A DNA stretch of 64,000 nucleotides from Protonemura montana (taxonomy: Eukaryota; Arthropoda; Insecta; Plecoptera; Nemouridae), in assembly GCA_947568835.1 (NCBI GenBank), contig OX387604.1, positions 26,875,076 to 26,939,075 on the forward strand. The letters are read 5' to 3'. Of the stretch, positions 9,843 to 60,594 are shown piece by piece. Made by a program: the position numbers and the translations under genes. The notes under the pieces are model-generated. The model worked only from the letters and a program-made list of their open reading frames with translations. It did no database searches and had not been told where the DNA came from. The stretch's first letter is position 1; each line of letters begins with the position of its first letter.

Positions 9843-12800
9843 GTAAATGAGTTTATTATTTTATTTGATTCAAAATCAGTTTTACAATTTTTGAAGTGCT
9901 GTAAAATATTTTGATGTTTGTAGCTTGAGACTATTTGGGGATTGCGATTCGCTAAAAATGACACCACATAACCACATAAAGCTAGTTTAGACGTCAATGC
10001 ATGTAGTTTAACGCGTCTGTACTTTATTGTAATAAATACCAATTATGAATGCCTCGATCTCCATTCTAGTAAAACATCGGATTTTGTACCTGTACCGGTA
10101 TTCAAATACTCTATGTTCAGTGAGAATCTGAGTCCACGCTTAAAACGGTAGAAAAATGTTAACCTTTTTATATAATTGAGGCAGGCAATTATTTCAAAAC
10201 ATAACCTGCAGGTATTTTCTTGCTCGGTAAACTAACTATGCAAGTAGATACATTCAGTTTGATTTATGTTCAAGCTTGTCTTTAGCACACATACTCTTGT
10301 AATATTTTTCCCTTATCAGTAAAATCCCATTCTCATCTAATCTTTCGAAAATAAACCTTATCAAATGTTTTATATCTGACAATAAGGATTAGGAAATAGA
10401 AAATTAAGGTGCTGCCTAATGAATTGTATTATTTCTTGGTAGTTAGACAAATCTAACTGCAGCTGTAAGGTTCAGGTGGTAGTTTCCGCGAAGTACATTA
10501 AAAGTCGTGCAAAATTAGCAGCAAAAGACAGGATGTAACAAATGAAAGCAATGCAACTTATTGACCTTAGACTAATTAAACAGTTGATCTGCTTTCAGTT
10601 CACGACATTTTTAACAAGAGGTTATTTTGACCTGATGACGACGAGTCAGTTAAAAAAGTGAAAAGACATATGTCATCTTAGATCCACCGCATTGAAATAT
10701 TGGCGTGGCAGGTAACCAGAAGATCCCACTAATAAACGAGTCTTTTCAAATACATCTCGGGTACATAAAGATATTGTTGGATGATGTCATCAAAAGTAGA
10801 CCAACAGTATTCGAAAACGCATCTGATTTTTTCAAAAATCGGTGTCAAGATTTCGTTTATTTCCACTAAAGCTCAAATAATTCGCACTAGTCAAAGCATT
10901 TGACACCAACATATTTTCGTTTCTCTTTCCTCTTGGCAGTAATCAGGTAGTCTACAATAACATTTGACCAGCGTTGAGATGAGCTGGAGATGAAAGTTTG
11001 CTTGTGTAGGCACTAGGCAAGCAGGTGGTAGGTAGGCTCCGTATAGTTCACGAACCTTCCTTTTTCAACCTTGGCAATGGAGAGTACCCAATCATTAGAA
11101 CGCACGCCCATTCTGCTAGCCATCTTAAAAACATTTGTGTCCAAAATGTACAATAGCTTTGTAATTATGGCCGACCTTTGTTGGAAGTACCATGACAGAT
11201 GGGGTGCCATAAGAAATAATAGTCAAGTCAACCCTAAAGTTGGTCTTAAATAACTACAATTGAGAGTTTGTTGTACTAACTCGGCATGTGTATGTTTTTT
11301 GCTTTTTGCAATAACAGAATATAAATCACGATTACTAGTTGTTTAGCTCATTATTGAAGTAAACATAATATGGAGGTAGAATACAATCGTATGTTCGCTA
11401 TATCATCAAAACATTTCATATGCAACGCAATGTTTTCGGCAAATAGGTGGACTTAAATCGTAGTCGGCAGTTTGATGTTTTTAATAGGTTAAGCTGACAT
11501 ATCATTTAGGCGGACCAGCGTGACACCCTCATACATTTAATAATTCATAACAGTGAGCAATATCTTTGTTAAATGTTGACGTCATTGTTCATATGACGCA
11601 AGCGAAGAGACATGTTCGATGGTTGAAGGATCCTACTTGCTCAAGAGATATTGGTGGTGATCTTTATCAATGCTTTTACTTACTTGGTAATTTCGCAGGA
11701 AAATAGATAAATCATATGAGCCTATTTCTTCCGAAACTATACTAAATGAAGCTAGAAGAATCGCCATCGAGCGTAGAAAAGCACACTACTGGTATTGGGT
11801 GCACTAAAAATAGGTGGCTATGCCAGGTAAAACTTGAGGATTGAACCAAAGATTGAACGCTGGGGTGACCGTGAACACCTGGTTCACTTCGAAAGACGTG
11901 CGAACAATGGATTAAGCGACGGATTTGTTGAAAACTAGATGATTTCGAATGCTTCCGGTGTAAAAACTAGGTTCTTGGATCATTCAAGTCTTTTTCTCAT
12001 AGAGTCAATGATAACAATACCGTATATACCATCTGGAACAAATCCTTACAATTCTCTGTGGAGTCAAGACTTCGAGTTACTGAACTATGCTTCAGAGTTT
12101 AGACTATGATTCGAAAGAAAGTTGACTTTTTTTTTTTTTCACTCCATGCGGGAGCCCTGTGTAATATCAGCCTACCGCTTTGCAACTGCTTCTATGCATC
12201 TTGATCGTCCCATTCTTTTACTTAGTGTCAGTAAACACAGTTTAATTCCTGAATAAAGCGATAAACACGACGTTGATAATCAAACAGAACATTTGACTCT
12301 ACTTTTATAACGCCATAAGACAGACTTCCTAACTTGACTTACTATCTTTTAAAAGTGAGCTTTTAATTATATTGAAAGTCCCAACCTATTAGTGGTTTAA
12401 ATATATACTCTTCTAGGTGGGTGGACGCACTTAAGAACACTTGTCGAGAATGTGCCGCTTGCAGTGTACATTAAATTACTCAATTTGTAAATGCTAAGTA
12501 GGAAATTATTAGACGTAATTTCTTTTTTCTTGCCAATTGCAGAAAACTACTTAAATAAACCGTCTTTTTACGAAATATACCAATTAATCATTTAGTCAGC
12601 GACTATCGTTAGAGAGGTGTGAGAATTAAAGCGTGCCCCTGTGGGTCGATCTTGGCCAGGCACCCCGACCAATCTTGACAGGCCTAACAGGGTCCCAACC
12701 CAACAGAGTAAAATAATTGGTGAGCGAGTTATCTTTTAGCCGCACACCTGCCCGTGCAGCGCGCTCATAAATCGCTCAATCTTCTATTGTCTTATCCAAT

Positions 12801-14443
12801 TGAGGGCGGATGTTTTCTTCTTGACTCACACAATAACCTTTCTTTGGGCGGGAAGCAGCCCGGCCATTTTTTTCTCGAAGATGCTGGCGGACTTTCTGTC
12901 GGTTCAAGGGCATGTATCACTTTTTATTTCGCGATACACTTTCAGCTAGTTAGGTTGTAAAGGCTGCCATTTTGCCGGCTCATTATATTGGGTACTCAAT
13001 TGTCCTAAAGAGAAGCGTTTTTACAGTTACTTATCTCTGTGATATTGCACTCAAACGTGTGGTTTTTGTGAACATATGTATAAAACTCTTCCAAAAATAA
13101 TGATATGTGTAAACGTTAGGGATGTTTATCATAAAATAACATGGGTTGCAAGCTGGAGGTACATGTATTTCCAACGCTTATAGCACAAGCACCAGACGAA
13201 CACTGTTTACGCGTGGGGCATTTGTGAAACAGTGACTTTCATGCCACGAACGAAACCGAGAGAGATAGAAACTGAGTATAGTCAAAGGGAAATGATGCCA
13301 ATGAAGGGTTTCAAAAAGCTATGTCATTGGTGGGATAGAAATTGTTAGTAACATTGTTTCCCGTTTCATAGATGGTCACTATCAGAGTTCTGTACCACCG
13401 ATAAAGCTAAGTGCAATTCCCACTGAAACATTAGCATTCGTCTCCAGTCTCACAAAGCAACGATATCGAAGACACCTTTAGTTTATAATTTCACAGAGGA
13501 CACCACATCTAGCGGGGCAATACGCTAACAGAATAAGAACACTAGACGAGAAAAGGCAACGGTTACATTCAATTTACATAGTGTTTATTTCTCTTAACAA
13601 CCTCCTTTAGCTGTCATACCTCTTCGTCGCTTTCATACCTCCTGGTGCAATGGCCGAGATGAGTCAAATATTTACCCTGTATTTCTTGCACAAAGGACCT
13701 CGGTTCATGCGTTGGTGCTAGGCACTCAGAACTGGGTTATATTCCTGTCCAATAATTACTTAAATTACAAGCAAAGTGATGTGAGAGTTGGGTTGCTGGT
13801 AAGTTTCCAGTTATGATGGAGTGCAGTAGGTACCTATGTCTACCTGTTAATAATGTCTAAGCCAATACTTACCTACCGGTACCTAACTGTGCTTGTGAAT
13901 TGAAATTCTGGCTCGTTGTGCACTTTGTATTGTATTCAAGGTGCGTTGCTTCTGTGCACTTTTGAGTGTTTGCTTCAGAAGTGCGTTATTCCATTATTGG
14001 TTGCCCCCTAAATTTTCTCTTTCAAACCAGCTTTCAAAGGACTGCGGCTGAAATTTATAAAAATAGATCTTACGGAAATAGACCCAGAGAAATCAATATT
14101 AACTTTGTGGATGATAAATTTACCTGTAGGAATGAACAGTGTTTTGAAAACTAGTTGAACATCTAAGCAGTAGCACTGTTAATAAGTGGTGGCTTATTGA
14201 ATATATATCAGTGGTAAATAAGCCAGCTACACTTTGTTCTTTCTAATTATGAAAACGAAATGGCCGGCAAACATTTTCACCTGAAAAAAGTGACTGCTTG
14301 AAATAAGAAATAATCCGAAGTGAGCACCGGAAACAATGGTAGCGTGTTGCTGGGCAGAGGGGGAAAACGCTTGAATTAATAACAATTATATTCCGATAAG
14401 GGTTAGGGTAGAAGCAGAAGCCAGCCGCCGTACCTAGCGACCG
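9843..14443. other. Unique sequence, nothing recognised
   Basis: AT-rich single-copy sequence. No exon, RNA gene or element is supportable. Short open frames on both strands are at chance length. Confidence 0.5.
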
Positions 14444-14485
14444 ACAAACAAACAAACAAACACACAAACAAATAAACAAACACAC
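14444..14485. repeat. (AAAC)n simple repeat
   Basis: ACAAACAAACAAACACACAA-type run with one AAAT interruption. Confidence 0.85.
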
Positions 14486-14853
14486 GGACGTACTGTTCGA
14501 TGTGCAGTCGTGTGAAACGCATTGGATCAAAACAGTGTCAAAGAACACTTTGAATGTTTTGTTAACTAACATATCGACAGGAGTGTTTTATTGATAGACA
14601 CCCAATTAAAAATTGCTTACGTAGTGCATCTTACTTACAAATAATCCATTCAATGTGGTACCTTAGATAATGATCACCAATTGGTGAAGTTACTTCTCTT
14701 ATGGAACTTTACCTACAAAATGCTAGTGGGTGCTTGTCTGCTCTCAGTACTTATTCTTAAGATAGATAAGATTCCCATCTGAGATGCCTCAGGGGGAGCA
14801 TGAGCACTCTGAAAACCCCACGTTTTATTGACGTATTTTATCTTTCACTATAG

Positions 14854-14862
14854 CCACGATCG
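14854..14862 (+). CDS. Possible 9-nt microexon of the second gene
   Basis: CCACGATCG lies between a strong acceptor (ATCTTTCACTATAG, pyrimidine-rich from 14835) and a strong donor (GTAAGAAA at 14863). Joined to the phase-1 end of the signal exon it adds Ala-Thr-Ile and leaves phase 1 again, with no stop. The sites are good on both sides, but a 9-nt exon has no coding signal of its own, and chance pairing of splice motifs is possible. Confidence 0.25.
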
Positions 14863-16127
14863 GTAAGAAACAGCACTCCGTTCCTCGAGATGCGCAGATT
14901 GAATTTCCGGCTAAAGTGAATGCCAACTGGCACTCGAAGGATAATCAATTGTCGAGTGTAGCTGAAACATCTAGGTGTTTATTGTTTAGTATTGGACATG
15001 GAGTTTGTAGTCAGTGACGAGACGGAAGTGTCTACTGGCTAGAGGTGTCATTTTAGTGGCGTCGGGTCAGGTCATGCTTGGCTAGCTGCCCCTGCCTCCT
15101 CCTCCGCCGCTGGTGGCTGCAGGGCATCGGAGCATGACCCCCGTACGCATGGCATGCTTTGTTGTATGAAACCTACTGGCTAGTGGACGAGTTGCGAGGG
15201 TCCCCTTTGCTTGTTACCTATAAAAGTACGAGGGGATGGTTTATGTAGATAGCGGTGACTAACTTGCGGCTAGACATGGGGAAGTGACGGCTGTTTGATC
15301 GCGATATTTAGTCATATTAGAAATTGGAAGGACATTTTTTTAAGCCTGGAAGTCATTCGCTATCAAGTGATGCTAGTGAAGTGTAAGAAATGGGACTTCC
15401 TTTGCAAGTTACTGAAGTTTTGATAATGTTTTTTGATTTTTCTCTATCAGAAAACCAACACAGTAATACCAACGAAAAACAAAATAATTATACAACATTT
15501 GATCATAGTTTCTTTGTCTAATGACATCTTGAATTGGACATAATCACTATGTTGGAAATAACCGTTTGTCTAGCTCACTTTTGTGGAATTTCAAACGAGA
15601 GTTTCGGTGCAAGATAAGGTCGATACCATACGTAAGCTCACTGAATCCTGAATCCATGCGAGAGTCCTGAACGTCACGTCCACCAGCAATGCTAGGTGAC
15701 CCGCTACCCTATATCAGATGTAAAACCTGTTTCTAGGTATAAACTTGCCCTGTTTCAACTTTCAATGCTATTTCCTGTCCCCATCGGTTTATGTTGCAGA
15801 CTCCACATTGTCTTTAGTCAAGACTTTCTTTTCACAAATATATACAGAGAATGATGAGAATTAATTTTGTATCAGACTGTAGTATCAATGAATGAATAAC
15901 AGAGTTCTCATTGCTCTAATTTGTTACTTAATTTGTGAAAATAGAAGCCTGATCATTTATTTGAGTGCAAGTTCAATGCAAATAATGCACGAAAATAATA
16001 GATAGTTGATTTATTCATCCATAGCCTGGCCGATGGTTTCAATTCTGCTAAATTCAATTTATTAGTTACACGCACATGTATCATGTGTGTGTAATCTTAT
16101 CTGACGCAGTAACGCATGCCACCAAGT
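14863..16127. other. Unique sequence, nothing recognised
   Basis: Contains a moderately GC-rich patch near 15060-15140 but no supportable exon or element. Confidence 0.45.
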
Positions 16128-16562
16128 TCAACCCTGCAAACTTACTTCAAACTTACTTCAAACTTACTCCAAACTTACTGCAAACTTACTCCAAACTTAC
16201 TGCAAACTTACTCCAAACTTACTCCAAACTTACTTCAAACTTACTGCAAACTTACTGCAAACTTACTTCAAACTTACTCCAAACTTACTGCAAACTTACT
16301 TCAAACTTACTGCAAACTTACTCCAAACTTACTCCAAACTTACTTCAAACTTACTGCAAACTTACTGCAAACTTACTTCAAACTTACTACAAACTTACTC
16401 CAAACTTACTTCAAACTTACTTCAAACTTACTGCAAACTTACTCCAAACTTACTTCAAACTTACTGCAAACTTACTTCAAACTTACTTCAAACTTACTTC
16501 AAACTTAATTCAAACTTACTGCAAACTTACTTCAAACTTAATTCAAACTTACTGCAAACTTA
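16128..16562. repeat. 11-bp minisatellite (AAACTTACTNC), about 39 units
   Basis: The units are AAACTTACTTC, AAACTTACTCC and AAACTTACTGC. Read as the variant base, GCCTGGT occurs twice, ten units (110 bp) apart, so blocks as well as single units were duplicated. The last few units include AAACTTAATTC variants. Two overlapping plus-strand open frames (LLQTYFKLT-like) are by-products of the repeat. Confidence 0.95.
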
Positions 16563-16762
16563 TTATTTTAATCTGACTTCTTTCTTACTCTAAAAGAATC
16601 CCACATAAGCATTTATAATTTTTAGAATGTCACATTTCTCGCCTGATAACCCGGTTCTGCGGAAGTTCGCAATGCCCTGATTTCAAAATTATTGGTGCAG
16701 TACAAAATATTGGTTGGAAGTAACAAATCGCTAGGCAATACTTTCTCTGCAAGCCGGCTACC

Positions 16763-16812
16763 CCTATTTTACACAAGATTTTACACAAGATTTTACACAA
16801 GATTTTACACCA
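16763..16812. repeat. 12-bp tandem repeat, four copies
   Basis: TTTTACACAAGA repeated, the last copy diverging to TTTTACACCAGT. Confidence 0.9.
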
Positions 16813-19800
16813 GTACATGACATTATTTTAGAACAGTAATCTCGGCTGGTACAGTCGTTCGATACAATATCAAGAACCCACAGAATATTTGCATTCCATT
16901 AATCTTGTCAGAGTCGAGTTTAACAAAATAACCTGACCACGATTGTATAAACTAAATAAATGAACCTGGATGATAATGAACTCATCTAAATGCGTTATTA
17001 CTACCTTTTTAATTTGATGATCTTGCTTCATATCAACCCAATCAATTGCCTGCTAGTTTATAATTTAATAATATGTATCTAGATCTACTTCAAAGAGCAA
17101 ACCCCTTCAAATCACACATTTTTTCCCCTTGTTATTACCGAAATTATTCTTACCAATTACAATTTTAATAACAACCGTTACTACGGGCACAAATATCATC
17201 GCGATTTGAAAGTAGCAATCCTTTAAAAACAGCCTCTGGTTTCAGTTATTCCAAAATCATTTGAATCATTGTCGGTTATTTCAGTAGGTTCAGCATCAAA
17301 TAAGTTGTTCTTGTTTTCAAGTTGATTTTAACCTCATCAACTCATCTTGCTCCTCCTCGCGGAGTACTGGTACATTCACAGGTGAGGCTTCTCTCACTTT
17401 CTCCAAGCTGGACCACTTTCTAAGATCGAAGCGGCATCGCAAGATGTCTGTTTCACCGGATATCTTTCCAGCCCGGCACATACTAATCACAGTCACTAAA
17501 GAATAGCCCCGGAAAATTAGCATTTCTAAAAATGCATCGATGCAATGTTTGCATTTGTTATTGTGTTGCAAATAAAATTGCACTAGAAGTTCTAGGTCTG
17601 TACGTTTGCATCTACTATTTGAATTTGCTATTCGGTATATTATTGTAACTTTGAAGGTTGTTCAAATAAGGCTTCCTAACGGTTTCGTAGACTAGCTCGG
17701 GTTGAAGCTGGTATATAGCAGCTAAAAGGGAAGGGAAAACATGGCTTGTTCATCTTCTATCATAGGATGAAATTAGTACACATCAGTTAGCTTATTGTGT
17801 TGAAATATTGTACGGAGAGTTGCAAGCAAACTAACTTCAACACACTCAAAGTGCATCTTGCATTGTGTCTCCCTTCCCCCAACCCCTCCTCTCTCACCGT
17901 CTCGATCACCACGCACCTAGGTTGAATGGCCCGAATAATTAGGTGCATGGGTACTTCCGCCAACGCAATTAGCACCTTTGTCGATACGAATACTCGCCGG
18001 ACGGGGATTCGATTAGACGGCCGAAGATGGCCCAATTTTATACATGTAAGGAAGCGACTGTTTACCGTCACATTCGATAAGAATTCGGTGAGAAAGCGGT
18101 AAATAACCAAGCCGATTAGATACTTATGACTTATATTCCGCGTTCTTTACATTTTTTTTTATTTCGCATAGTACTACTTTGTGTTACGTGCAGGCGGCCA
18201 TGCGAGTTTTTTCATGACAATGAACTCTTTAAAAATCGTTTAAACAGAATTATTCGAGTTGGTACGTGACTTGGTCCTCTTTTGTGTTGGTAACAGTGGA
18301 TATCAAGTCGCTGGAGATGAAAGGATGTTTGGATGCCAGGTGACATGCGTTAGGGAATAAGGACAGTGGGGTAACGCGTGGTCCAGCCGTGGCCAACACG
18401 GGATTAATCACTATCTGAACGCATTTCAAATGTTAATTGATGTAATCACATGTGTAACGGTTATTGGTGACGTTTGGGGCCAGATTTCCGGCGACGTGTG
18501 TTTTCAGGGATAAGCCAGATCATTCGAGTGTGACTCAGAGTCAATTTGCATCGGATTTTTCGCTAAAGAAAGTCGACTTTTGAGGTAATTTCATTTATTA
18601 GATGTATTTTTACTGGCTGCACCGCTCTGACGACTTGTCACTCGGGTAATTATGCCGAGGAGAAATCTCAATGAGCCTCCTCCGAGTTATCGGTGGGAAA
18701 ACTGCCAATTATTATGGGAAATGAACGGAAAAAGAGTTTTTTTTTTCTCTTCAGTAGTGTGGAAAAGACGGAAATAAATATAATTCTATTCTGATTTCTA
18801 ATTATATTCATTCAATTTATGTGCGGTCATTTATGCAATAGCGCATGGTTTCCTTTTTTTGATCGAAACATCAACATTTGGCAAACATAGGACAGTGCGT
18901 AGATTCGGTGATAATAGCTTCAAGATTGTAGCATATGTTCAATCGAAGCTACAATCCAATATAGGCCAGAAAGTGCGATAAGCAAACATGATTCATGTTT
19001 GCCTGAATTGCACTCTGAGATAACAACATATCCGTGATAACTACTTATCCATGATAATTACAGAGCCATGCTGATCTTGCTTTGCACACTTACTACTATT
19101 TGCTCAAATTATTATACACATTTTGAAATTCCGTGACATCTTCATTAACCTTTGTTGCAAGTTTGGCTACTTTCAAATTTCAACATCCAAGCGGCTTTTC
19201 TGTCAGTTCAGTGAGTGGGAAGGCGTCATCATCCGCTACCTCAGCACTGGGCCAGTAAACTGCATGTTTAACATGCACTGAAGACACTCGAATGCATGCG
19301 CTAATAAAATGCAATAGACCGGACCCAATTTTCCCGATTGCCCCGCCTCGTCGCACGACTTTACAATTATCGGCCACTCGGCCTCTTTATGTCTAACAAT
19401 ATTCAGACCACAAATTTGAGTAAAATCTTTGGGCAATGAATTGCGAAGCCAAACCACAACATTACCACGAAATAGAGTGCAACGAAAATGTGACAGACAT
19501 CAGTCGGGCTGCCCGTCCAGTCAACGTAGTTTAGCTCTGGTCTTCACCAGTGGCGCACTGACATGCTAATCCATGTGCCAACTTCCATGGGAAGCGACTT
19601 GTGATGTCTTAGTTTCGCTCGATACGATGAACTTCTCTTATTAAATTTTATGTCGTGCGTTTCGTGTATTAAAACTGATATCAACTTAGATAAACGACGT
19701 GGGCCGCATGGGATATAATAAATTTCAACTACAGTTATGATATGAGGCTCGTACCGAATTCTGTCCTCGTTTGCCAAATTTAAATGTCAGTCTTCGGCTT

Positions 19801-22800: not shown

Positions 22801-23370
22801 CGGCATCGCCATAGTTGACAATGCAGATTTGAATAATCCTGCGAATTCAAATGATTTGACGACACCTATTGTTCGCTGCCCCTAATTTGTGGCTAACGGT
22901 GGAACTTGGTCGCTAATCAATGTTTAACGGGTTATCACAAGGCCTAATTGACATTAACAATTAAGGGTCATACGATGAATTCAGCAGAGCTTTTGCTCTG
23001 AAACAACGAGTTGGTGGGAGGTTTGTTTGTTTTTGATGTTTCGAAGCACTTTGAACCTTGTTAGTGACGAGGACCCGCATACCTTTTATCACCTGTTGGA
23101 CGCAACTCGGCGCACAAACACAACTCGAGACAAGAAAGTTGGGCAAGACAACGAGTTTACCTAGAAGTTGTAATTCATTTAAACCGTCTTAATTGTTAAC
23201 AATAACATTTAACCGCTGATTCAAATTAGGGAGATGTCTATAACATAAATTCATAATGTTGCAATACTTATGATGGTAGCGATATACCCAAATAAACAAA
23301 TACACTTTACTAGTTCTAATAATTATTATTGTCATGATTGACCGTTATGGTGTGAGACATTTCAGTGGTA
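16813..23370. other. Long unique stretch, nothing firmly recognised
   Basis: About 6.5 kb with no SINE or array. A minus-strand open frame at 17317-17583 has a protein-like composition but no family I recognise. A GC-rich patch at about 20270-20410 has no obvious gene. No splice-bounded exon could be supported. Confidence 0.4.
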
Positions 23371-48412: not shown

Positions 48413-48689
48413 TAACAAGAGCTCTGCAATCCTAACAGAAAATGAATCGAATGGTCCACGAATGACGTTTAAAACGCGTCACTTTGCGTTGTTCACCCCT
48501 TTATAAAGTGGCTCCATTGAAACACTATCGAGTTAACATTGATTACCACCAGGAGATGATATCGTGTGGGAACTTGATAAATAGTTCCTGACCGTTTCAC
48601 TTGCATATATAATAGAACTCAGTTTCAACTTTGATTTGTCCCTCATTGGGACTGAGATTCAATTGAAAGGGACCGACCAACATGGCGAC

Positions 48690-49530
48690 CTTTACAACTA
48701 AAGGAAACTAGGACTGCCATCCTACAACTGAAGGAAACTAGGACTGTCATCCTACAACTGAAGGAAACTAGGACTGTCATCCTACAACTGAAGGAAACCA
48801 GGACTGTCATCCTACAACTGAAGGAAACTAGGACTGTCATCCTACAACTGAAGGAAACTAGGACTGTCATCCTACAACTGAAGGAAACTAGGACTGTCAT
48901 CCTACAACTAAAGGAAACTAGGACTGCCATCCTACAACTGAAGGAAACTAGGACTGTCATCCTACAACTGAAGGAAACTAGGACTGTCATCCTACAACTG
49001 AAGGAAACTAGGACTGTCATCCTACAACTGAAGGAAACTAGGACTGCCATCCTACAACTGAAGGAAACTAGGACTGCCATCCTACAACTGAAGGAAACTA
49101 GGACTGTCATCCTACAACTGAAGGAAACTAGGACTGTCATCCTACAACTGAAGGAAACTATGACTGTCATCCTACAACTGAAGGAAACTAGGACTGTCAT
49201 CCTACAACTGAAGGAAACTAGGACTGTCATCCTACAACTGAAGGAAACTAGGACTGCCATCCTACAACTGAAGGAAACTAGGACTGTCATCCTACAACTG
49301 AAGGAAACCAGGACTGCCATCCTACAACTGAAGGAAACTAGGACTGTCATCCTACAACTGAAGGAAACTAGGACTGCCATCCTACAACTGAAGGAAACTA
49401 GGACTGTCATCCTACAACTGAAGGAAACTAGGACTGCCATCCTACAACTGAAGGAAACTAGGACTGTCATCCTACAACTGAAGGAAACTAGGACTGCCAT
49501 CCTACAACTGAAGGAAACTAGGACTGTCAT
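48690..49530. repeat. 30-bp minisatellite, about 28 units
   Basis: The unit begins CCTACAACTGAAGGAAACTA and ends GGACTGTCAT or GGACTGCCAT. The two types are irregular on the left and strictly alternate from about 49231 onwards, a 60-bp dimeric repeat. A 295-codon minus-strand frame across it is a consequence of the 30-bp period. Confidence 0.97.
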
Positions 49531-49560
49531 CTATATTGACATGTATATTGAGGTAGTTTA

Positions 49561-49914
49561 TTGAACGGTTTGCCGTGTTGGAAACACCGGTTCTCGCTAG
49601 ATCACCGAAGTTAAGCAACACTTCGCTGAGTCAGGTATTAGATGGGTGACCATCATACACATGACCAGTTCTGTTCGGGAGAGAGGTTGGAAGGATGAAA
49701 GTTAGTACTGCAACTTCACTCGCCTTGCTTATCAACCTCTCGACAGCATGGATTTGTGGAGGAATCCTGTTGTTCGCGTTGTACCGTCCTTCGGAAGGGA
49801 CGTTAAGCCGGTGGTCCCCTTGGTCTTCGACAGGAGTAGGCTACGTGCCAGCACCGGGTTTCCCCTCCCTTCTAGGCTAGGTTAAGTTCGTCATCATCCT
49901 CATCATCATCCACT
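49561..49914 (+). mobile_element. 5S-headed SINE copy 8 (one promoter unit, 3' end lost)
   Basis: Head TTGAACGGTTTGCCGTGTTG, one unit, then body up to CATCATCATCCACT, where it switches directly into the AGCAAGGTGCCAT array. The CATTCACCGACG segment and tail are missing. Confidence 0.9.
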
Positions 49915-50908
49915 TGCCATAGCAAGGTGCCATAGCAAGGTGCCATAGCAAGATGCCATAGCAAGGTGGCATAGCAAGGTGCATAGCAAGGTGGCATAGC
50001 AAGGTGGCATAGCAAGGTGGCATAGCAAGGTGCCATAGCAAGGTGCCATAGCAAGGTGGCATAGCAAGGTGCCATAGCAAGGTGCATAGCAAGGTGCATA
50101 GCAAGGTGCATAGCAAGGTGCTATAGCAAGGTGCCATAGCAAGGTGGCATAGCAAGGTGCCATAGCAAGGTGCCATAGCAAGGTGCCATAGCAAGGTGGC
50201 ATAGCAAGGTGGCATAGCAAGGTGCTATAGCAAGGTGCCATAGCAAGGTGCCATAGCAAGGTGGCATAGCAAGGTGGCATAGCAAGGTGCATAGCAAGGT
50301 GGCATAGCAAGGTGCATAGCAAGGTGGCATAGCAAGGTGGCATAGCAAGGTCCATAGCAAGGTGGCATAGCAAGGTGGCATAGCAAGGTGCATAGCAAGG
50401 TGCCATAGCAAGGTGGCATAGCAAGGTGGCATAGCAAGGTGCCATAGCAAGGTGCCATAGCAAGGTGCATAGCAAGGTGCCATAGCAAGGTGCCATAGCA
50501 AGGTGCCATAGCAAGGTGCATAGCAAGGTGCATAGCAAGGTGGCATAGCAAGGATAGCAAGGTGCATAGCAAGGTGGCATAGCCAGGTGCATAGCAAGGT
50601 GCCATAGCAAGGTGCATAGCAAGGTGCCATAGCAAGGTGGCATAGCAAGGTGGCATAGCAAGGATAGCAAGGTGCATAGCAAGGTGGCATAGCCAGGTGG
50701 CATAGCAAGGTGCCATAGCAAGGTGCCATAGCAAGGTGCATAGCAAGGTGCTATAGCAAGGTGCCATAGCAAGGTGCCATAGCAAGGTGCCATAGCAAGG
50801 TGGCATAGCAAGGTGCCATAGCAAGGTGCCATAGCCAGGTGCTATAGCAAGGTGCCATAGCAAGGTGCCATAGCAAGGTGCCATAGCCAGGTGCCATAGC
50901 AAGGTGCT
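49915..50908. repeat. 11-13-bp minisatellite (ATAGCAAGGTGCC), about 80 units
   Basis: Units ATAGCAAGGTGCC, ATAGCAAGGTGGC and the shorter ATAGCAAGGTGC, with occasional AGCCAGG and AAGGATAGCAAGG variants. A block containing AAGGATAGCAAGGTGC recurs at about 50552 and 50662. Unit lengths vary, so minus-strand open frames of several hundred codons are by-products. Confidence 0.96.
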
Positions 50909-51039
50909 ATTTTGTTGGGATTTCTTGAGGGAATTGTTTTGCCCAAACGTGACTTGTTGATGATCACCAGTTGAGGTGTAATCGAGTTTGTCGCTTTAAG
51001 ACGTGAACTATTAACTGCATTGTGGCGTGGCAAGGAAAT

Positions 51040-51090
51040 TGAGGGGGGGTCAGGGGGGATCAGGGGGGGTCAGGGGGGGTCAGGGGGGCT
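51040..51090. repeat. (GGGGGGTCA)n short repeat
   Basis: Five or six copies of GGGGGGTCAG or GGGGGGATCA. A (CCCCA)n tract follows at 51138-51165. Confidence 0.9.
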
Positions 51091-51274
51091 GGTCGATACT
51101 GTCCGTGCTACCACGGTGCAAATCTAGCTCCCACCTCCCACCCCACCCCACCCCACCCCACCCCAACCCAACCCAACCACCAGCACGCACGATCGACAAG
51201 GTCACGACAGCGAGTAAACATTACAAGTTATTTTCTTACTTCAAGGCTAGAGAATAATATCGGTGAAAAAAAAT

Positions 51275-51390
51275 AAGCAAAGTAAGCAACATAAGCAATG
51301 TAAGCAATGTAAGCAATGTAAGCAAAGTAAGCAATGTAAGCAAAGTAAGCAATGTAAGCAATGTAAGCAATGTGAGCAATGTAAGCAACA
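51275..51390. repeat. 9-bp repeat (GTAAGCAAT)
   Basis: About thirteen copies of GTAAGCAAT, GTAAGCAAA and GTGAGCAAT. Confidence 0.93.
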
Positions 51391-51511
51391 TCTGGATCTG
51401 TTTGGTTTTTGTTGCTTCCTGGCGCTTTTTTTTGTGTGAATATTTGAAGCAAGTCGTAGAAAAGTTAATCTGCTCGAAATATTTGCTTACACTTGTTCAC
51501 GCTTCGCAATC

Positions 51512-51530
51512 CATCCCCCCCCCCCCCCCT
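51512..51530. repeat. Poly(C) tract
   Basis: An uninterrupted C run preceding TGCCC. Confidence 0.85.
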
Positions 51531-51763
51531 GCCCTTTAGCGCCCCGCCCCCAATGCGGCGTACTTCACCATTGTTTTACGAGTGCATGGGTGAGATGTTC
51601 ATGCATTTTCCATGCTTCTTGGTTTTTCCAAGCAAACCACGAACCCCCTCCCCTCCCCTCTCTACCCCCTCTCCCCCCCACCCATCCGTCTTTGTGAAAC
51701 GCGCCAAACATTTCTAAAGAGTGGATTTCTACTCGGCCGGATTTATCGCGGTTTTTGACAAAG

Positions 51764-52110
51764 TGAGCCGATACTCACCTGCAGGTGCCGATACTCACCT
51801 GCAGGTGCCGATATTCGCCTGCAGGTGCTGATATTCACCTGCAGGTGCTGATACTCACCTGCAGGTGCCGATACTCACCTGCAGGTGCCGATATTTACCT
51901 GCAGGTGCCGATATTCACATGCAGGTGCCGATATCCACCTGCAGGACCGATACTCACCTTCAGGAGCCGATAGTCACCTGCAGGTGCCGATATTCACCTG
52001 CAGGTGCTGATATTCACCTACAGGTGCTGATATATACCCGCCAGATGCCAATATTTACCCACCAGGTGGAAAATTTACCCACCAGGTGCAAAATTTACCC
52101 ACCAGGTGCT
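51764..52110. repeat. 20-bp minisatellite built on the palindrome CACCTGCAGGTG
   Basis: Unit GCCGATACTCACCTGCAGGT, about 17 copies, degenerating to the right into CCCACCAGGTG. About seven units keep the perfect 12-bp palindrome, which contains the E-boxes CACCTG and CAGGTG. Confidence 0.95.
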
Positions 52111-52791
52111 GATCTGAATCTAATGACGCCAGTTTGTGTGTAAATTGGGTCGTGTTTTATATATTTCTGTATATTTCTCTTCGAAGCGTAAAATGGGAGC
52201 TTTTTTAAAACTTTCGTGTTTTACTCTGAAGAAAATTCGACTCAGATATTGATTTTCTTGGTCGTTTCGCCGGCTGTTTTCCGTCGCACACGAGGTGCAC
52301 GAGCTTAGGTTCGATATTTCGGTGGAAGTTCACGCAAAACTGCCCCCCCCCCCCTCTCTTTTCAAGCTTTCAAACCACGTGACCTGATGCCCACCCTCCT
52401 TGCAACCACCTCACCACAAACTCAATATTTACACAATTTCCATTCGTTCAATATCGATCTCGATCAGCCAATAGCATCAGGGATAATCTTGCCAGACAAA
52501 TTCTTGTTTTATAATTCTTCATTTTGATAGTCACATCTGATAATCTGAGAAACTGGTGAAATGTTTGTAAAATTTGTGAAATTATTCTTGTAAAATAATC
52601 CCTATGTTCATGTTCTAATGTTCTAAAAGCAATAAGAGTTTTAGATCTTCACAGAACTTTTTTTCAAAAGCTAGTTCATTGTCAGTGGAATTGATCGGAG
52701 TGGATTGACTTTCCTAGTTTTCTCCTGGCTGCAGTTTTAAATACCTTGGTCCATTGTTGGCTCCCAAATCCCAGCTGCAAGGCATATTCTT

Positions 52792-53002
52792 CTTGTACCG
52801 TCCTTCGGAAGGGATGTTAAGCCGGTGGTCCCCTTGGTCTTCGACAGGAGTAGGCTACGTACCGGCATCGGGTTTCCCCTACCTTCTAGGCTAGGTTAGG
52901 TTCATCATCATCATCCACTCATTCACCGACGCCATTAGACCAGTGCCGCATGGCCAGATGTCAAAACAGTGCGTCGTTAAACACAACAAATAATAATAAT
53001 AA
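52792..53002 (+). mobile_element. 5S-headed SINE copy 9 (5'-truncated, no promoter unit)
   Basis: Only the 3' body from TTGTACCGTCCTTCGGAAGG to the ACACAACAAATAATAATAAT tail. It is followed by AACCAAGCAACGCTGGT, which also follows copy 10. Confidence 0.88.
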
Positions 53003-53061
53003 CCAAGCAACGCTGGTGCAGTCCTAGTGTTGATATCTTATACCATGACACCAAGCAACGA

Positions 53062-53773
53062 CCGAACGGTTTGCCGTGTTGGAAACACCGGTTCTAGTTA
53101 GATCACTGAAGTTAAGAAACACTGCGCTGAGTCAGGTATTGAATGGGTGACCATCATACACATGACCAGTTCTGTTCGAGAGAGAGGTTGGAGGGATGAA
53201 AGTTAAGCATCACTGCGCTGGGTCAGGTATTGAATGGGTGGCCATCATACACATGACGAGTTCTGTTCGGGAGAGAGGTTGGAGGGATGAAAGTTAAGCA
53301 ACACTGCGCTGGGTCAGGTATTGAATGGGTGGCTATCATACACATGACCAGTTCTGTTCGGGAGAGAGGTTGGAGGCATGGAAGTTAAGCAACACTGCGC
53401 TGGGTCAGGTATTAGATGGTTGACCATCATACACATGACCAGTTCTGTTCGGGAGAGAGGTTGGAGGGATGAAAGTTAGTACAGCAACTTCACTCGCCTT
53501 GCTTATCAACCTCTTGACAGCATGGATTTGTGGAGGAATCCTGTTGTTCGCGTTGTACCGTTCTTCGGAAGGGACGTTAAGCCGGTGGTCTCCTTGGTCT
53601 TCGACTGGAGTAGGCTACGTGCCGGCACCGGGTTTCCCCTCCTCCCTTCTAGGCTAGGTTAGGTTCATCCTCATCATCATCCACTCATTCACCGACGCCA
53701 TTAGACCAGTGCCGCATGACCAGATGTCAAAACAGTGCTAAGTTAAACACCACAAATAATAATAATAATAATA
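53062..53773 (+). mobile_element. 5S-headed SINE copy 10 (four promoter units)
   Basis: Head CCGAACGGTTTGCCGTGTTG, then four 91-bp units (GTTAAG at 53112, 53203, 53295 and 53385), body and (AAT)n tail. Confidence 0.92.
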
Positions 53774-53805
53774 ACCAAGCAACGCTGGTTTAGTCCTGGT
53801 GCTGA

Positions 53806-53823
53806 TACCCCCCCCCCCCCCCC
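53806..53823. repeat. Poly(C) tract
   Basis: A C run following GCTGATA. Confidence 0.85.
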
Positions 53824-54149
53824 TCCGTTGCTTGTCGGCGTCCATTTTGTAGTTAAGCTAAATTTCAAATTGCGACAAAAGATCAATTCGTACAAAAAGT
53901 CTGATTCCTCACATAAAAGCCAATGAGGCTTTGAGGGAAAAATTAATCCGCTAATTTTGTGAAGAACTCGTCTTATTCTTTTTATCCAACAAGGAATCGT
54001 TACTAAAATGTGAAATGTACAGAATAGAGATAATATTTCCACTAATTTGATACACGCGTCCTCAATTTAGATTCGGAATTTCGGATTTACACAATTCAAT
54101 TGAAAGTCCAATGGAACGTGTGATCGGTCCAAATCAACTGCCCATTGTC

Positions 54150-54203
54150 AGGTGCATTCAGGATCATTGCAGTGCATTCAGGTGCATTCAGGTGCATTTG
54201 GAT
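54150..54203. repeat. 10-bp short repeat (GTGCATTCAG)
   Basis: Four copies, partly spaced. Confidence 0.8.
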
Positions 54204-54392
54204 GCAGTTGAATGATGCTACGCGGTGACGTAGAGTAATCAGAGAATTGGGTCAGAAATGCATTCCAGCTCATTTGCTGGCCAACATTGCAGGAAATCAA
54301 TTACCTGATGCGTTCCATTAATGCAAAGCACGTGCCAATGATGGAACCAATCTGGCCAGAGTGAAAAGCCATTAATTAATAATAATTATAAT

Positions 54393-54800
54393 AACAAAAA
54401 CTATTTCAACTGGGTTTTGAATGCTAAAGTAAAGAACAACTAAATTTCCCGACGTTTCGTAACTTGTACCTGTTACTTCTTCAAGGGTTAGAGCAGTCCT
54501 GACAATTTTCCAATAACAAAAGAACCACACAAAATTATAACCAAGTTCAAGCTTCCTAAATGCATCTAAATAAAATAATAATAACAATTTTGACCCAAAT
54601 TATTTTATTTAGATGTATTTAGGATACTTGAACTAGGTGGAAAATTATCAGGACTGCTCTTACCCTTGAAGAAGTAACAGGTACAAGTTACAAAACGTTG
54701 GGAAATTTAGTTGTTCTTCACTAAGCATTCAAAACCTAGTTGAAATAGTTTTTGTTAAAACTAGTGCTAAATTTACATCAAGTAGACATGAGTCTAAAAA
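54393..54800. mobile_element. Inverted pair of the hammerhead-like dispersed element
   Basis: The left arm (54393 to about 54580) and the right arm (about 54597-54800) are reverse complements with scattered differences. The right arm is longer and includes the outer end CATCAAGTAGACATGAGTCT. On the minus strand the left arm reads GTAAC, AGGTACAA, GTTACGAAACGTCGGG, preceded by TTGAAGA. This is a full 5-bp stem and intact GAAAC, but U in place of the first core C. Confidence 0.65.
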
Positions 54801-55671
54801 CAATAATGATGATAATTAGTTTCTTCTACTTATTTGCCAGCTAAGCGTCAATAGAGTAAAATCATTTCTCTATCAGTTATTTTTTCAACATATTTAAAAA
54901 CAGCAAGTTCTTTAATTTTAGAGCTTTTCTTCAGGTTCTAAGGTAAAACATTCCATAGTTTGTGTCCCATTCTCAGAAGTTTTTCTCTGTATATTTAAGA
55001 TTGGTCTGGTGCTTCTCAACTCTTCTGTTCTTTCCTCTCTTCGTGGGATTGTCGTAAAACACATAGAAAATCAAGGTACAATTTAAGGATGAAAAGTTGA
55101 GAGAGAAGAGAAAGAATGGGATGGGGGAGGTACCGTGCTGCATTGGAGCGGAGAACGAGACCAACACTCGGTGATTATTTTCCCGGAACAACGATCATAA
55201 AGAGAAAACTTCTCCCGGAGGAAAATTGCTTTTCTTTTATTTTCCTTTAAATGGGGACTAGCAATTTTGTAAAGCTACGCTGCGTTTTGTATATCAATAG
55301 CGAATTAAAAGAGATTCTAGCAAGGCTTCCTGCTCGGAGTTTTTACTTCTGATAAACGGCATAATCAGTGGCCACAATCTGTTATTTCAAATTTTGATAA
55401 CAATTATTCTCTGTGTGTTTGGATGGATTTAAAATAGCCGCGAGCCTCGTAGGAAAGTGGCCCTTCATGAAAGCGACATCAAAACAGTTCGTGAGTTTCT
55501 ACGCTCACATTATATTATTGACATTTTCCATTTCCTTGCTCGGTATTTTTGTCGGTGTAGACAACGCTGCGTAATTTCTTTACACACGCAACTGCGAGCT
55601 GGAGGCGAAGCATTGCGTGCATCCACGCACGTCTGCCGTCCAGACATCGAGACAATTTCAAAACTTAATAC

Positions 55672-56258
55672 AAGCCAAGCACAAGGCAAGCACAAGCCAA
55701 GCGCAAGCCAAACACAAGCCAAGCCAAGCACAAGCACAAGCACAAGCCAAGCACAAGCCAAGCACAAGCCAAGCACAAGCACAAGCACAAGCACAAGCCA
55801 AGCACAAGCCAAGCACAAGCCAAGCCAAGCACAAGCACAAGCCAAGCACAAGCAGAGCACAAGCCAAGCACAAGCCAAGCCAAGCACAAGCCAAGCACAA
55901 GCACAAGCACAAGCCAAGCACAAGCCAAGCACAAGCCAAGCCAAGCACAAGCACAAGCACAAGCCAAGCGCAAGCCAAGCACAGCACAGCACAGCACAAG
56001 CACAAGCACAAGCACAAGCACAGCACAAGCCAAGCACAAGCCAAGCCAAGCCAAGCACAAGCCAAGCACAAGCCAAGCACAAGCCAAGCCAAGCACAGCA
56101 CAAGCACAAGCACAAGCACAGCACAAGCCAAGCACAAGCCAAGCACAAGCCAAGCACAAGCACAAGCACAGCACAAGCACAAGCACAAGCCAAGCCCAGC
56201 ACAAACACAAACACAAGCACAAGCCCAGCACAAGCACAAGCCAAGCACAAGCCCAGCA
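55672..56258. repeat. (CAAGCA/CAAGC) low-complexity minisatellite
   Basis: Irregular mixture of ACAAGC, CAAGCC and AGCACAGC. All six frames tend to be open, spelling KHKPSTSQA on plus and LVLGLCLACA on minus. I do not treat any of these as genes. Confidence 0.95.
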
Positions 56259-56261
56259 CGA

Positions 56262-56309
56262 CTACCACTCGACTATCACTCGACTATCACTCGACTATCA
56301 CTCGATTAT
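56262..56309. repeat. 11-bp repeat (GACTATCACTC), four copies
   Basis: CGACTATCACTCGACTATCA run. Confidence 0.9.
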
Positions 56310-58221
56310 TAAGGTGATATTCGTTCCAAGCCCACGAAAGCTACAAACACACAATGCGTGTAAATGAACTGGAGATTATTTTCCTCCAACTTTGCAAGGT
56401 TTATTACTATTCTATGTTCGGTGGCCGTTTTACTGTCTTGCGCTTCTCAATCAGGTGACTTGTAAGATCTTGATAGATCTTGATAGATGGTGAGCTACTC
56501 GAAGAAAGTGCACCGATTTCCTAATTCACGGATTATGTTTCGCACAACGAACACAATGAACAAATGAAGTTTTTAATTTAATCTGGATTAAGTTAATCCT
56601 AGCTTTCATCGTTGCTTTATTCGGGGTTTGTTTTATGAAAATGTCTTTTCTTTTTAGCTGATAATACTTCTCCAGTTTCTTTTCACAAAAAACGTCTTCC
56701 AATCGCAATTGTCGACATTACTTGGATAAAGAAAAACACGGAAGAAAATCCTCGTTGTTCGAGTTTAGCCAGTAATTGCACTGGGCTGTAATTTCTGACA
56801 GTGGCGCTATCTCTTGTTTGTGGTACTAATGTTTGTGCCGTCGAACCAACATGTCTCCCTAATACGGCACAACCATCTGATGATAAAGTTAATTATTCAC
56901 CTGCAAGCATTTACATATCAATACCATACATGAAACATTGAGGCTGAACCAGGAAATCAATATGCATATCATGGTCATGATATGGTTTTGCACCCCAAAA
57001 AGGTTGTCGCCTAGAAAGGTATATATTGCGTGCTTCAAAATTTCGATTTACCAAACGTCAAAGCATATCCCATGTTCCTCGACAATATTTGAAAACTCGC
57101 TCGAATTCGAACTCATTTTAACGGTCATTTCAACTGTAGTCGCCAGCCTGGCGCCCTCATGCAGGCAAACAATTAACTAAGTTACTTTTTTTTGAACGCT
57201 TCTCTTTCAGGGCATTGTACTTTCAGTTTAAATAATTTAACTGTGCCCACCCCCTAGCCTCGTTGTCCAGTTCGGTGTCGTTTTCCCTGGAAGCAGCGTC
57301 GTGCATGAGGAATAAAGGCGTGGCAAGTGATTGCGTACAGCGCAACGCGACTGACTTGCGTGGTAACCATGACAACCCACGGACACACAAGGGTTAATCG
57401 TGATTTCCATGTAGCCTGTTGCATGACTTAGGTTGCGTCTGTTTTTTTTCTATTTATTATTTATGAAAATGAAAGGGTGAATTTGAAGGCGGTGAAATGA
57501 TAGTGGTTCCAGTCCCAGCTTTGCTGGGTCTGTCATATGGATTGTAGATGGAAATTGGGAGCAACGTTTGTTTATGGTCGATGGTTTTGGGATGAGAGGC
57601 AGATCGATCGAAACCTACAAACACATTTGTTGTTCTTTTTGTCTTTAATACAAAATTGAGTGAATTTTCAAGTCCTGCTCGGATATATATTCACGATTTC
57701 CTAGTTTTCTATGCGGTCCATCATCTTAATGAATTCTACAAAGCGAGTTACCGAGATAACGAGGTACCTGCGAATCCAGGTCAAACGATCGCTACGGCAC
57801 AGTGCAGCTGGGTACGGGACGCAACGGGAAGCAACGGGGCTAGCGCTGCCACAACCACATCCAGCATCCGAGCTCAGTTCTCCATCCCTGCATCCCTGTA
57901 TCCCTGATCCCTTCCGCAACCCACTGCAACAAACTCGCCCAAAAACTCGCCCAAAAACCCGCACCCCAGTTTCAATTCGACCCATTCCTATATAGAATTA
58001 GATAGATTTGTCTATTTGCTAGAAAGTTGACGCTTCGGCTTCTGCTGGCATCATCCGTAATTCAACATATTTTCCCCACTTTTCCCTCGTGCGATCTTTC
58101 CCATAAGAGTATACGTGTTTCAAATCCCAATCATTGGGATTCGCGCGTGACGTTCCCTAGTAACGTGCGTCCGTCCCTTGAGCTTGCAGTGTGAGTTTTC
58201 ACCTTCCCACCCGAGCTCTGA
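56310..58221. other. Unique sequence, nothing firmly recognised
   Basis: Several open frames of 60-94 codons, none with a recognisable family or matching splice sites. Confidence 0.4.
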
Positions 58222-58262
58222 GCGGTATCACACGGTATCACGCGGTATCACGCGGTATCATG
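58222..58262. repeat. 10-bp repeat (GGTATCACRC), four copies
   Basis: GGTATCACACGGTATCACGC run. Confidence 0.88.
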
Positions 58263-59733
58263 CTACGTCAAAACTGTTGATGGTGGATTGTTTAAGAGAA
58301 GCGATCGATATAATCCACCCACCGGGCCAGCGAGCAGCCTATAACCCCGGGGCTGCCCTGTTTTCCCACTTTTCCTTCCCAGTTTTCCTTCCCTGCGGCC
58401 TACCGCCCCAAAAACACACTTTGCCAATTTCGCAAAGCATCATTCTGCATTGTGACCCTTTGCTAGCTGCCGGTGAATGAGTACGCTTGCATTTCGGTAA
58501 GAGCTCCAGGGAGTGAGGGAGCGGGGTTCGGGACGGGGTGCGGACGGGTCCTGTGTTTTGCTGGGCCGAATGGAGGACGCACAGAACTGTGCCAACTCGA
58601 TGGTTAGCTATCGATCGGTGCGTATGCTTGGGGAAATGGTGCGTAGGAGCGACGATCATGCGTGGACCGACCCTCCGATACTTGCCTCGCCAGAGTTCAG
58701 CTCGGTGAATTCTTTTACAATATCTCGGTTCGATTCTCGGTGAGAAGGAATTAAGATGGGACCGCGTTGTTGTTGTTTGCATCTGAGCTGATGCTATGTT
58801 CGACATGACAGTTCTGATCTCCGGGACAGTCATAATATTGACTGTTTGCATTCTGCATTCCGATCAACAGGAGGTCTATTATTGGTGACGCGAGCCGCCT
58901 CTTCGTGGCTTCGAGCAGCGCTAACTTTAGGATGGAATAAATCATAATTAATATTTGCGGTTCTGGAAGGTCTATCCTTAATTAGCGATATTAATTCTAA
59001 TAACTATAGCGGATCCACAAGGAACGAGCAAAGGTTACACTGCTCTCCACGAAATATCACCTCAATGCAATCTGTTTTCCTATTTTCTTCTCATGATTAT
59101 TTTTGCAAAACATCCTGATTTTCAGGAGCGCTAGATTTTAGGTTTCTAGTTTAATTGGATGCCATTTCTGGACCCTGAAAATGTGGGTCTGCCCTCATGG
59201 TTGCCGCGACCATTCGTCAAGTCCAGTCGGGCGCTTGGGGCGGAATAATATTTTGGAACGCGCCCAAAATAATCCGTGGGGTGCAGGAAACCCTGATTTC
59301 CTCTCACATCGACAATATCGCGAATTATTAAATATCAGAGTTGGTCACAGGTCCGACCGTCTGTCATCTATTTGACAATTCTTTGACAGATCTCCGATTA
59401 TTTAATAACATTGGGACATCCATGATAAAATGTCTCAACTCTCAAGGATTTCCTTCTGACATACGCTTTATTTCGAAAGATTGTAGCTACAGATAAACAA
59501 AAAATGCACAAAATAATTACCATCCTAATGATAGTTTGCCCAAAGAACGCGCTATTTTGCATGTTTTCTCGACTTCTAGAACTTTCGTTAAGTCAAACAG
59601 AAGTTCCCAACTTGACTTTTAAGTTTTGTGTACAATACGCGTTAGTCGGACCTCGAAGCTTTTAGAATATGTCACCTCAGACTCCAATACTCAACTTGAA
59701 GTTCATCATTCGAGCCACTAGCAACCTGTGTTA

Positions 59734-59788
59734 GGCCAAATTCAAGTCAAATTCAAGTCAAATTCAAGCCAAATTCAAGCCAAATTAC
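59734..59788. repeat. 11-bp repeat (AAATTCAAGTC), five copies
   Basis: CAAATTCAAGTC and CAAATTCAAGCC units. Confidence 0.9.
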
Positions 59789-59893
59789 TAAAATGATAAA
59801 ATACTAAACATTGAGTTTTCTAGAAAAACTGAGGAACAATTGTATACAACTGGGTTTATTTCTGAAACAGTGAAATGATTTTTGTTCCTCCTG

Positions 59894-59942
59894 ACCGCTT
59901 CTGGCACTTCTGGCACTTCTGCCACTTCTGGCACTTCTGGCC
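59894..59942. repeat. 9/10-bp repeat (TCTGGCACT)
   Basis: Five copies of CTTCTGGCA or CTTCTGCCA. Confidence 0.85.
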
Positions 59943-60555
59943 AGGCTATGACTTGTTCAAACCCTTGAATTCCAGCTCCACACTTGGAACAAATTGCTAA
60001 ACATTCCATGCGATCTCTTGACAAATTGTTGTGATGTATCCGGTTCGCTCTGCCAATAAGACATGTTGTTGACTTCGTAAACATCTTATCCCACAAGCCC
60101 AAGGAGTATTTGTAGTGTATTACATTGGCCACACATCCCTGACTTCGCAGCCCAAGGGAGACTACTAGTCTTACAGGCTTTGCAGATCTTCTTCCAGATA
60201 AAAGTAGGATCTAAGACATTGTGTTTATCCCCCTCAGCAACACATAGTCCATTACTTGAAAGAAATGCATTCATTAGCTCAACTTCAAACACACTACACG
60301 ACAGGAGCGATCTTTTAATCAACTTCAATTAGTGCTACTTACCAGAACTGATTTCATAATTCCCATGGCGTGGCTCAGGCTCATGGACTAACATGGAAAG
60401 ATTTTTATTAACATTCATTGCCGGGTGAAATGATTCACGGAAATATCTTCTTCACGATTAGTCCAATTAAGTCGATAATTGCCCCCAAAAAAATCTTCGC
60501 TTTTATCTTTGACTTGTGATTTTTGAGACTTAAAATTGTTCGCGACGTTTTCATG

Positions 60556-60594
60556 TAGTAACGTTGTTTTTCTTGTGTATTTAGGTAAGATGAA
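60556..60594 (+). promoter_or_regulatory. Candidate recursive splice site 3 (junction 60584|60585)
   Basis: A branch-like TAGTAAC has its A at 60561, 23 nt from the junction. A tract of 15 pyrimidines in 19 bases follows, then TAG joined directly to GTAAGATG. It lies 16,851 bp from site 2. Confidence 0.48.

Follow-up and report, generated by a model that had tools for sequence, protein, structure and literature searches.

Our analysis confirmed three AG|GTRAG junctions in Protonemura montana which, judged from their sequence, are probably zero-nucleotide ratchet points through which the 57-kb first intron of a Fasciclin-3 (Fas3) orthologue would be removed in four steps. We class this intron as a well-supported prediction of a new case of a mechanism known in flies and predicted in other insects. 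A preliminary description of this DNA (the window, a stretch of 64,000 nt) had proposed a recursively spliced giant intron, and as a prediction this is supported by the ranks of the sites, by the host intron and by a genome-wide signature. The junctions lie exactly where they had been placed, at 27471|27472, 43733|43734 and 60584|60585, and at all three a strong acceptor abuts a strong donor. The features are listed here with scores from weight matrices that were not trained on P. montana, and are to be read accordingly.

9785..9842, + strand: coding part of exon 1, signal peptide; 58 nt, phase 1 end, in-frame join to exon 2
9843..64000, + strand: intron 1, portion within the window; downstream DNA places the intron end at 67200
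9843..9848, + strand: exon 1 donor ACG|GTAAAT; weak, score 2.8
27452..27477, + strand: predicted ratchet point 1, pyrimidine tract-CAG|GTAAGA; score 9.5, sole genome match itself
27472..27529, + strand: predicted cryptic RS-exon of site 1; 58 nt, closing donor ACG|GTGAGT at 27530, frame-shifting if retained
43703..43709, + strand: branch-point-like TTCTAAC of site 2; branch A at 43708
43714..43739, + strand: predicted ratchet point 2, pyrimidine tract-CAG|GTGAGT; score 13.0, the strongest, sole genome match itself
43734..43763, + strand: possible RS-exon following site 2; length 30 nt, donor AGA|GTGAGT weak (score 2.4), stop codon if retained
60565..60590, + strand: predicted ratchet point 3, pyrimidine tract-TAG|GTAAGA; score 8.2, the weakest, sole genome match itself

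Matrix scoring of every AG|GT site on both strands of a 264-kb region placed 43733 (13.0), 27471 (9.5) and 60584 (8.2) at ranks 1 to 3, above the minus strand and above shuffled sequence, with all three on the coding strand of a single intron. The next-best sites score 7.2 on the plus strand (at -4486) and 6.5 on the minus strand (at 27083 and 83832), in agreement with the earlier remark that the minus strand holds no comparable junction. The AG-free stretches measure 61 nt at site 1, 49 nt at site 2 and 26 nt at site 3. A branch point had also been noted at each site; this holds for site 2, where TTCTAAC is equalled by 1% of the 125 YAG|GT sites in the intron, and not for sites 1 and 3, whose branch points are ordinary (equalled by 38% and 46% of the same sites) and were dropped as evidence. 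Each site with its flanks matches only itself genome-wide, in searches that pass over simple repeats and very common words, and a repeat origin is not supported. Coding exons at the sites are not supported either: reading through from exon 1 meets a stop after 19, 2 and 15 codons at sites 1, 2 and 3, respectively. By sequence, splicing at the sites would regenerate a donor and keep the exon junction in frame.

The intron lies in a gene which, from its sequence features, is an orthologue of Fas3, an insect cell-adhesion gene. The signal-peptide exon reported upstream joins, in frame, an exon at 67201-67389, beyond the 64,000-nt window, and therefore intron 1 on the plus strand measures 57,358 bp and ends at 67200. 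From the sequence, exons 1-4 are in frame around it, and the phase is consistent across this 57-kb first intron. Searching with tblastn and Drosophila Fas3, using an approximate query sequence that may differ from the database entry, gave five collinear matches (E 2e-6 to 3e-5), with the transmembrane exon 61.5% identical to the query. We found a signal peptide, Ig domains, one transmembrane segment followed by FARATGRWCF, and collinear exons; with Pfam, I-set was above the cut-off and Ig_3, in the first piece, below it. The tblastn-based gene reconstruction did not recover the one or more Fas3 exons lying between 72.7 and 78.8 kb. Three open reading frames of the intron were scanned with Pfam for nested genes, and zero were above the cut-off. 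Among the literature matches listed, none links Fas3 to recursive splicing by its title.

The short motif by itself is not enriched, as had been stated, since 5.5 copies of AGGTRAG are expected per strand: the plus strand of 9843-64000 contains 8, with 6 outside tandem arrays (revising the earlier count of 5), and the minus strand 17, with 5 outside arrays. Full sites are far rarer in shuffled introns (300 for each of Markov orders 1-4), where sites scoring at least 8.2 averaged 0.10, 0.15, 0.21 and 0.33 per intron, and three or more occurred in 0, 0, 1 and 3 of the 300 shuffles, for a Poisson P of 0.0002-0.0046. The steps described as 17.6, 16.3 and 16.9 kb measure 17,629, 16,262 and 16,851 bp, followed by 6,616 bp to exon 2, and place the sites at 31, 59 and 88% along the intron. 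Their reported regularity holds for the first three gaps alone (P = 0.0013, post hoc). The final step is 6.6 kb, and therefore the spacing is uneven overall: evenness of all four gaps gives P = 0.048 and the largest gap P = 0.012.

Based on these sites, we infer an order of splicing in which exon 1 would first be joined to the acceptor at 27471, regenerating a donor (exon 1|GTAAGA) that would then be spliced in turn to 43733, to 60584 and, in the final step, to the genuine acceptor of exon 2 at 67200, leaving 0 intronic bases and an unaltered exon 1/exon 2 junction. The acceptors would probably be recognised by exon definition via short cryptic RS-exons, and the stronger ratchet donor would then lead to their removal. 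An RS-exon donor is strong only at site 1 (+58), where it scores 6.2 against 7.2 for the ratchet donor, and a donor of at least 6 in the same range occurs at 2.3% of 3000 random positions; the donor of site 2 (+30) is weak, and at site 3 no donor above 2 was found 15-300 nt downstream. In the genome, 14 of 28 ratchet-like sites are followed 15-135 nt downstream by a donor at which a short cryptic exon would end; the controls gave 0, 0 and 1 of 28. These 28 sites comprise 19 of the 22 strict-motif places that are not poly-T and 9 others. Among the first 20 (17 strict places and 3 close partners), 8 have an RS-exon donor of at least 5, as do 6 of the 8 added later, which were chosen because they are clustered or fall within the Hox cluster. 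In two pairs of these sites the tracts are similar over 24 and 36 nt.

Our genome-wide search found the strict composite motif 24 times, against 4 in the reversed control, a 6-fold excess, and looser versions of the motif 111 against 33 and 49 against 10 times, with reversed controls that retain any repeats. A scrambled donor gave only 39 against 21, and with one mismatch allowed the excess drops to 267 against 179. T-only, repeat-like tracts make up 25 of the 100 places listed among the 111 looser-motif places. Neighbouring sites no more than 100 kb apart are on the same strand in 11 of 12 pairs among the places listed (shuffle P 0.003), as is 1 of 3 further pairs 100-200 kb apart. This test covers the places listed, with 100 of the 111 and 100 of the 267 listed; 137 places were entered, leaving out one-mismatch places with a broken AGGTRAG core, and 98 were kept after 27 T-only tracts and 12 of the CC-rich TCTAGG type had been dropped. 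In addition, one ratchet-like site lies near the midpoint of the long Ubx intron. The motif excess, the strand clustering, the RS-exon donors and the Ubx site support, at the level of sequence, recursive splicing in this genome.

The alternative with most weight, although we consider it unlikely, is that the working ratchet points are sites 1 and 2, or just site 2, with site 3 resembling one by chance 6.6 kb upstream of exon 2. Site 3 has the lowest score and the shortest AG-free stretch, has no RS-exon donor, and is of a kind expected 0.10-0.33 times per intron; against this, it outranks every AG|GT of the 264 kb bar sites 1 and 2, it extends the 16-18-kb spacing, and a strong RS-exon donor is also missing at 14 of 28 other ratchet-like sites. 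That all three are unused look-alikes within a long intron is highly improbable: AGGTRAG density is that of chance and the region was chosen post hoc, but the Poisson values above are low, the opposite strand of the intron holds no equally good site, and the same signal occurs elsewhere in the genome with a structure of its own (strand clustering and RS-exon donors).

An equally small chance attaches to the sites being acceptors of ordinary alternative or poison cassette exons that start with GTRAG, with no recursion. The good donor at +58 of site 1, and the 19-codon open frame there after exon 1, would fit such an exon, but inclusion of the 58-nt exon would put exon 2 out of frame, the 30-nt exon contains a stop, the exon end is missing at site 3, and every site begins with a full donor, which at sites 1 and 2 beats the downstream donor. 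We retain zero-nucleotide recursive splicing at three ratchet points as the preferred reading.

Recursive splicing is documented by RNA in Drosophila and in mammals (PMC6110457, PMC8605326), by sequence only in other insects (PMC2773006). In Drosophila, zero-nucleotide recursive splicing occurs at intronic ratchet points of Ubx, kuz and Ten-m (PMC6110457, PMC8605326), and introns >40 kb mostly have ratchet sites, with first introns enriched (PMC6110457). The Fas3 intron of P. montana, another insect and a case predicted from sequence alone, resembles these in its juxtaposed acceptors and donors, its position as a first intron >40 kb, its several sites, the zero bases that would be left in the mRNA, and the predicted short frame-shifting RS-exon with a weaker donor at site 1. 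It differs in step size, 16-18 kb where fly segments average 9.1 kb, and in site placement, at 31, 59 and 88%, whereas in flies the first site of three is found at ~25%. Enrichment of ratchet-point sites in large introns of mosquito, honey bee, beetle and sea urchin was found by comparing site counts in introns >50 kb with complementary strands (PMC2773006); our evidence is likewise sequence-only and from a non-Drosophila insect, whereas our analysis assigns individual sites to a gene and also tests for RS-exon donors and for clustering by strand. Large vertebrate introns have ratchet-point site ratios of only 0.9-1.5 (PMC2773006), and mammals, as summarised in PMC8605326, express many RS-exons and have few intronic ratchet points that are fully suppressed. 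The predicted competition between ratchet donor and RS-exon donor is shared with vertebrates, but the P. montana Fas3 intron gives no sign of an expressed RS-exon.

The Ubx site offers the cleanest comparison, because recursive splicing was first described at Ubx (PMC8605326). We tentatively suggest, at somewhat less than even confidence, that RS-exon recursive splicing is a genome-wide route for long introns in P. montana, with ratchet points dividing introns evenly (Fas3 by three 16-18-kb steps, Ubx near the midpoint). If so, recursive splicing as known from flies, including the RS-exon step and the use at Ubx, would predate drosophilids, and selection would act on step size. With three ratchet points predicted in a named gene, one can test directly whether other insects share the fly mechanism and its exon-definition step. 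The motif excess, strand clustering and RS-exon donors are visible in the P. montana genome without RNA.

The three zero-length AG|GT junctions under study (candidate ratchet points) lie in intron 1 of a Fasciclin-3 (Fas3) orthologue, and recursive, i.e., stepwise, removal of this intron is a well-supported prediction that we regard as very probably correct. Using a Drosophila Fas3 sequence as the query, we found five collinear exons at 67.2, 68.0, 72.6, 79.6 and 80.6 kb (window coordinates), with the TM exon showing 61.5% identity to the query, on the 29.6-Mb contig that carries the window (assembly of 258 Mb, 34 contigs). Exon 1 occupies 9785-9842 and ends in phase 1; from it a single open frame runs through exon 2 (67201-67389) to exons 3 and 4, and Pfam places I-set above cut-off on the later exons and Ig_3 below cut-off on the earlier ones. 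The signal-peptide exon of the preliminary description is exon 1 of this gene. Since exon 1 ends at 9842 and joins exon 2 at 67201, intron 1 is 57,358 bp long, ending 3.2 kb past the window. Upstream, Fas3 is adjoined by exons of a yellow/MRJP-family gene (locus L021:8949-9455 and window 7587-7934, +; Pfam MRJP 135 and 41 bits), and an open frame of Ser/Gly-rich repeats occupies 8288-8611.

The junctions are located exactly where they had been described:
27471|27472, +, site 1
43733|43734, +, site 2
60584|60585, +, site 3

A simple generic matrix for an acceptor immediately followed by a donor gives these sites scores of 9.5, 13.0 and 8.2, respectively. When the window was extended by 40 kb on its upstream side and 160 kb on its downstream side (264 kb in total), no other AG|GT on either strand scored as high. 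The best minus-strand AG|GT in this region scores 6.5, in agreement with the earlier observation that this strand holds no comparable junction. Equally good junctions were also rare in shuffled sequence: in 300 Markov-shuffled introns for each of orders 1 to 4, the mean number of sites scoring at least 8.2 was 0.10, 0.15, 0.21 and 0.33 per intron, and three or more occurred in 0, 0, 1 and 3 introns. AGGTRAG by itself shows no enrichment, as previously stated, and a genome search with each of the three sites returned no match besides the site itself.

As ratchet points, we trust site 2 most, then site 1, and site 3 least. Site 2 has a GTGAGT donor, an AG-free stretch of 49 nt and the branch point TTCTAAC, with only a weak downstream donor at 30 nt. 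At site 1, the AG-free stretch is 61 nt, and a donor 58 nt downstream scores 6.2 vs 7.2 for the ratchet donor; this is the anatomy of a predicted cryptic RS-exon, i.e., a short exon between ratchet acceptor and downstream donor, and its 58 nt would shift the frame if retained. Site 3 has a GTAAGA donor and the weakest acceptor of the three, with no donor scoring above 2 within 300 nt downstream. Of the branch points proposed earlier, that of site 2 stands out, and those of sites 1 and 3 are ordinary, being equalled or bettered by 38% and 46% of 125 YAG|GT sites. The sites fall at 31, 59 and 88% of intron 1, in steps of 17,629, 16,262, 16,851 and 6,616 bp. The regular spacing noted before is seen in the first three steps (P = 0.0013, a post hoc test of these gaps alone) and is weaker once the short fourth is counted (all four gaps, P = 0.048; largest gap, P = 0.012).

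Four tests outside the window suggest that recursive splicing is in use in this genome. A strict pattern, a pyrimidine tract followed by YAG|GTRAGT, occurs at 24 places vs 4 for the reversed pattern, and two looser versions at 111 vs 33 and 49 vs 10; a scrambled-donor control (GTRAG to GARTG) gave 39 vs 21 reversed, and allowing one mismatch weakened the excess to 267 vs 179. Part of the looser-pattern excess comes from repeat-like copies of T(12+)AGGTAAG, possibly poly-A tails in reverse orientation; this family accounts for 25 of the 100 places listed out of 111 and for 2 of the 24 strict places. This family imitates a ratchet point, e.g., at C1:31263466, C12:928260-931346 and C15:11113228-11116305, and was excluded from the strand-clustering counts. 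Among the matches listed, 98 sites remained after removal of 39 repeat-like ones, and adjacent pairs of these shared a strand in 11 of 12 cases when less than 100 kb apart (strand-shuffle P = 0.003), in 1 of 3 when the distance was 100-200 kb, and in 34 of 72 when it was larger. Same-strand trios are present at C1:12035643, 12046257 and 12061498 (+; gaps 10.6 and 15.2 kb) and at C2:21856379, 21877557 and 21900707 (+; gaps of about 21 and 23 kb). A donor scoring at least 5 lies 15-135 nt downstream in 14 of 28 ratchet-like sites read, vs 0, 0 and 1 of 28 in equal-size upstream, further downstream and antisense ranges; 8 of the 28 were chosen for their position in clusters or in the Hox cluster, and the other 20 have such a donor in 8 cases. 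RS-exons closed by these donors would measure 49-118 nt, and in 12 of the 14 the length is not divisible by three.

The Hox cluster shares the contig of the window (C16), with 10 of 10 homeobox matches on the minus strand at 2.27-3.33 Mb, and contains two of these sites:
C16:3080812-3081069, Ubx exon 1 match, 62% identical
C16:3036267-3036288, -, strict ratchet-like site, donor at +52 (loci L051, L047)
C16:2992482-2992652, homeobox within the minus-strand series, which we take to be that of Ubx from its sequence
C16:2966693-2966713, -, ratchet-like site, donor at +71 (locus L050)

The strict site is flanked by the Ubx exon 1 match at 44.5 kb and the homeobox at 43.6 kb, both distances being measured to the matches themselves. 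The second lies between Ubx and Antp, in the Antp sense, and the Antp homeobox follows 181 kb downstream of it. The presence of Antp and Ubx in one cluster speaks against D. melanogaster as the source, and the Fas3, MRJP and Hox genes together point to an insect.

In Drosophila, a high-confidence recursive site is present in 63% of introns above 40 kb, with first introns overrepresented, and a typical segment is about 9-15 kb; fly introns with three sites have the first near 25% of the intron, whereas here it is at 31% (fly data, PMC6110457). Fly ratchet points have been linked to cryptic RS-exons, about 50 nt in length, with donors that lose out in competition (PMC8605326), and enrichment of ratchet-point sites in large introns, from sequence, is already published for mosquito, bee, beetle and sea urchin (PMC2773006). 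The kind of phenomenon is therefore already known. Our search of the main text of openly available papers found neither recursive splicing of Fas3 intron 1 nor a Ubx recursive site in a non-Drosophila insect.

The region is also rich in repeats, and tandem-repeat masking covered 50,431 of the 264,000 bases. Eight 5S rRNA matches (Rfam) occur in the window, at 24697, 26005, 35397, 49561, 53062 and 62859 (+) and at 35006 and 44863 (-), several of which continue into tandem arrays with a 91-bp unit starting inside the 5S-like part; they represent a 5S-derived interspersed element. Minisatellites are very numerous (2192-5807, 47876-48410, 48693-49531, 49915-50907 and others), and one 114-bp tandem unit is common to 6791-7214 and 29721-30283, 22 kb apart.
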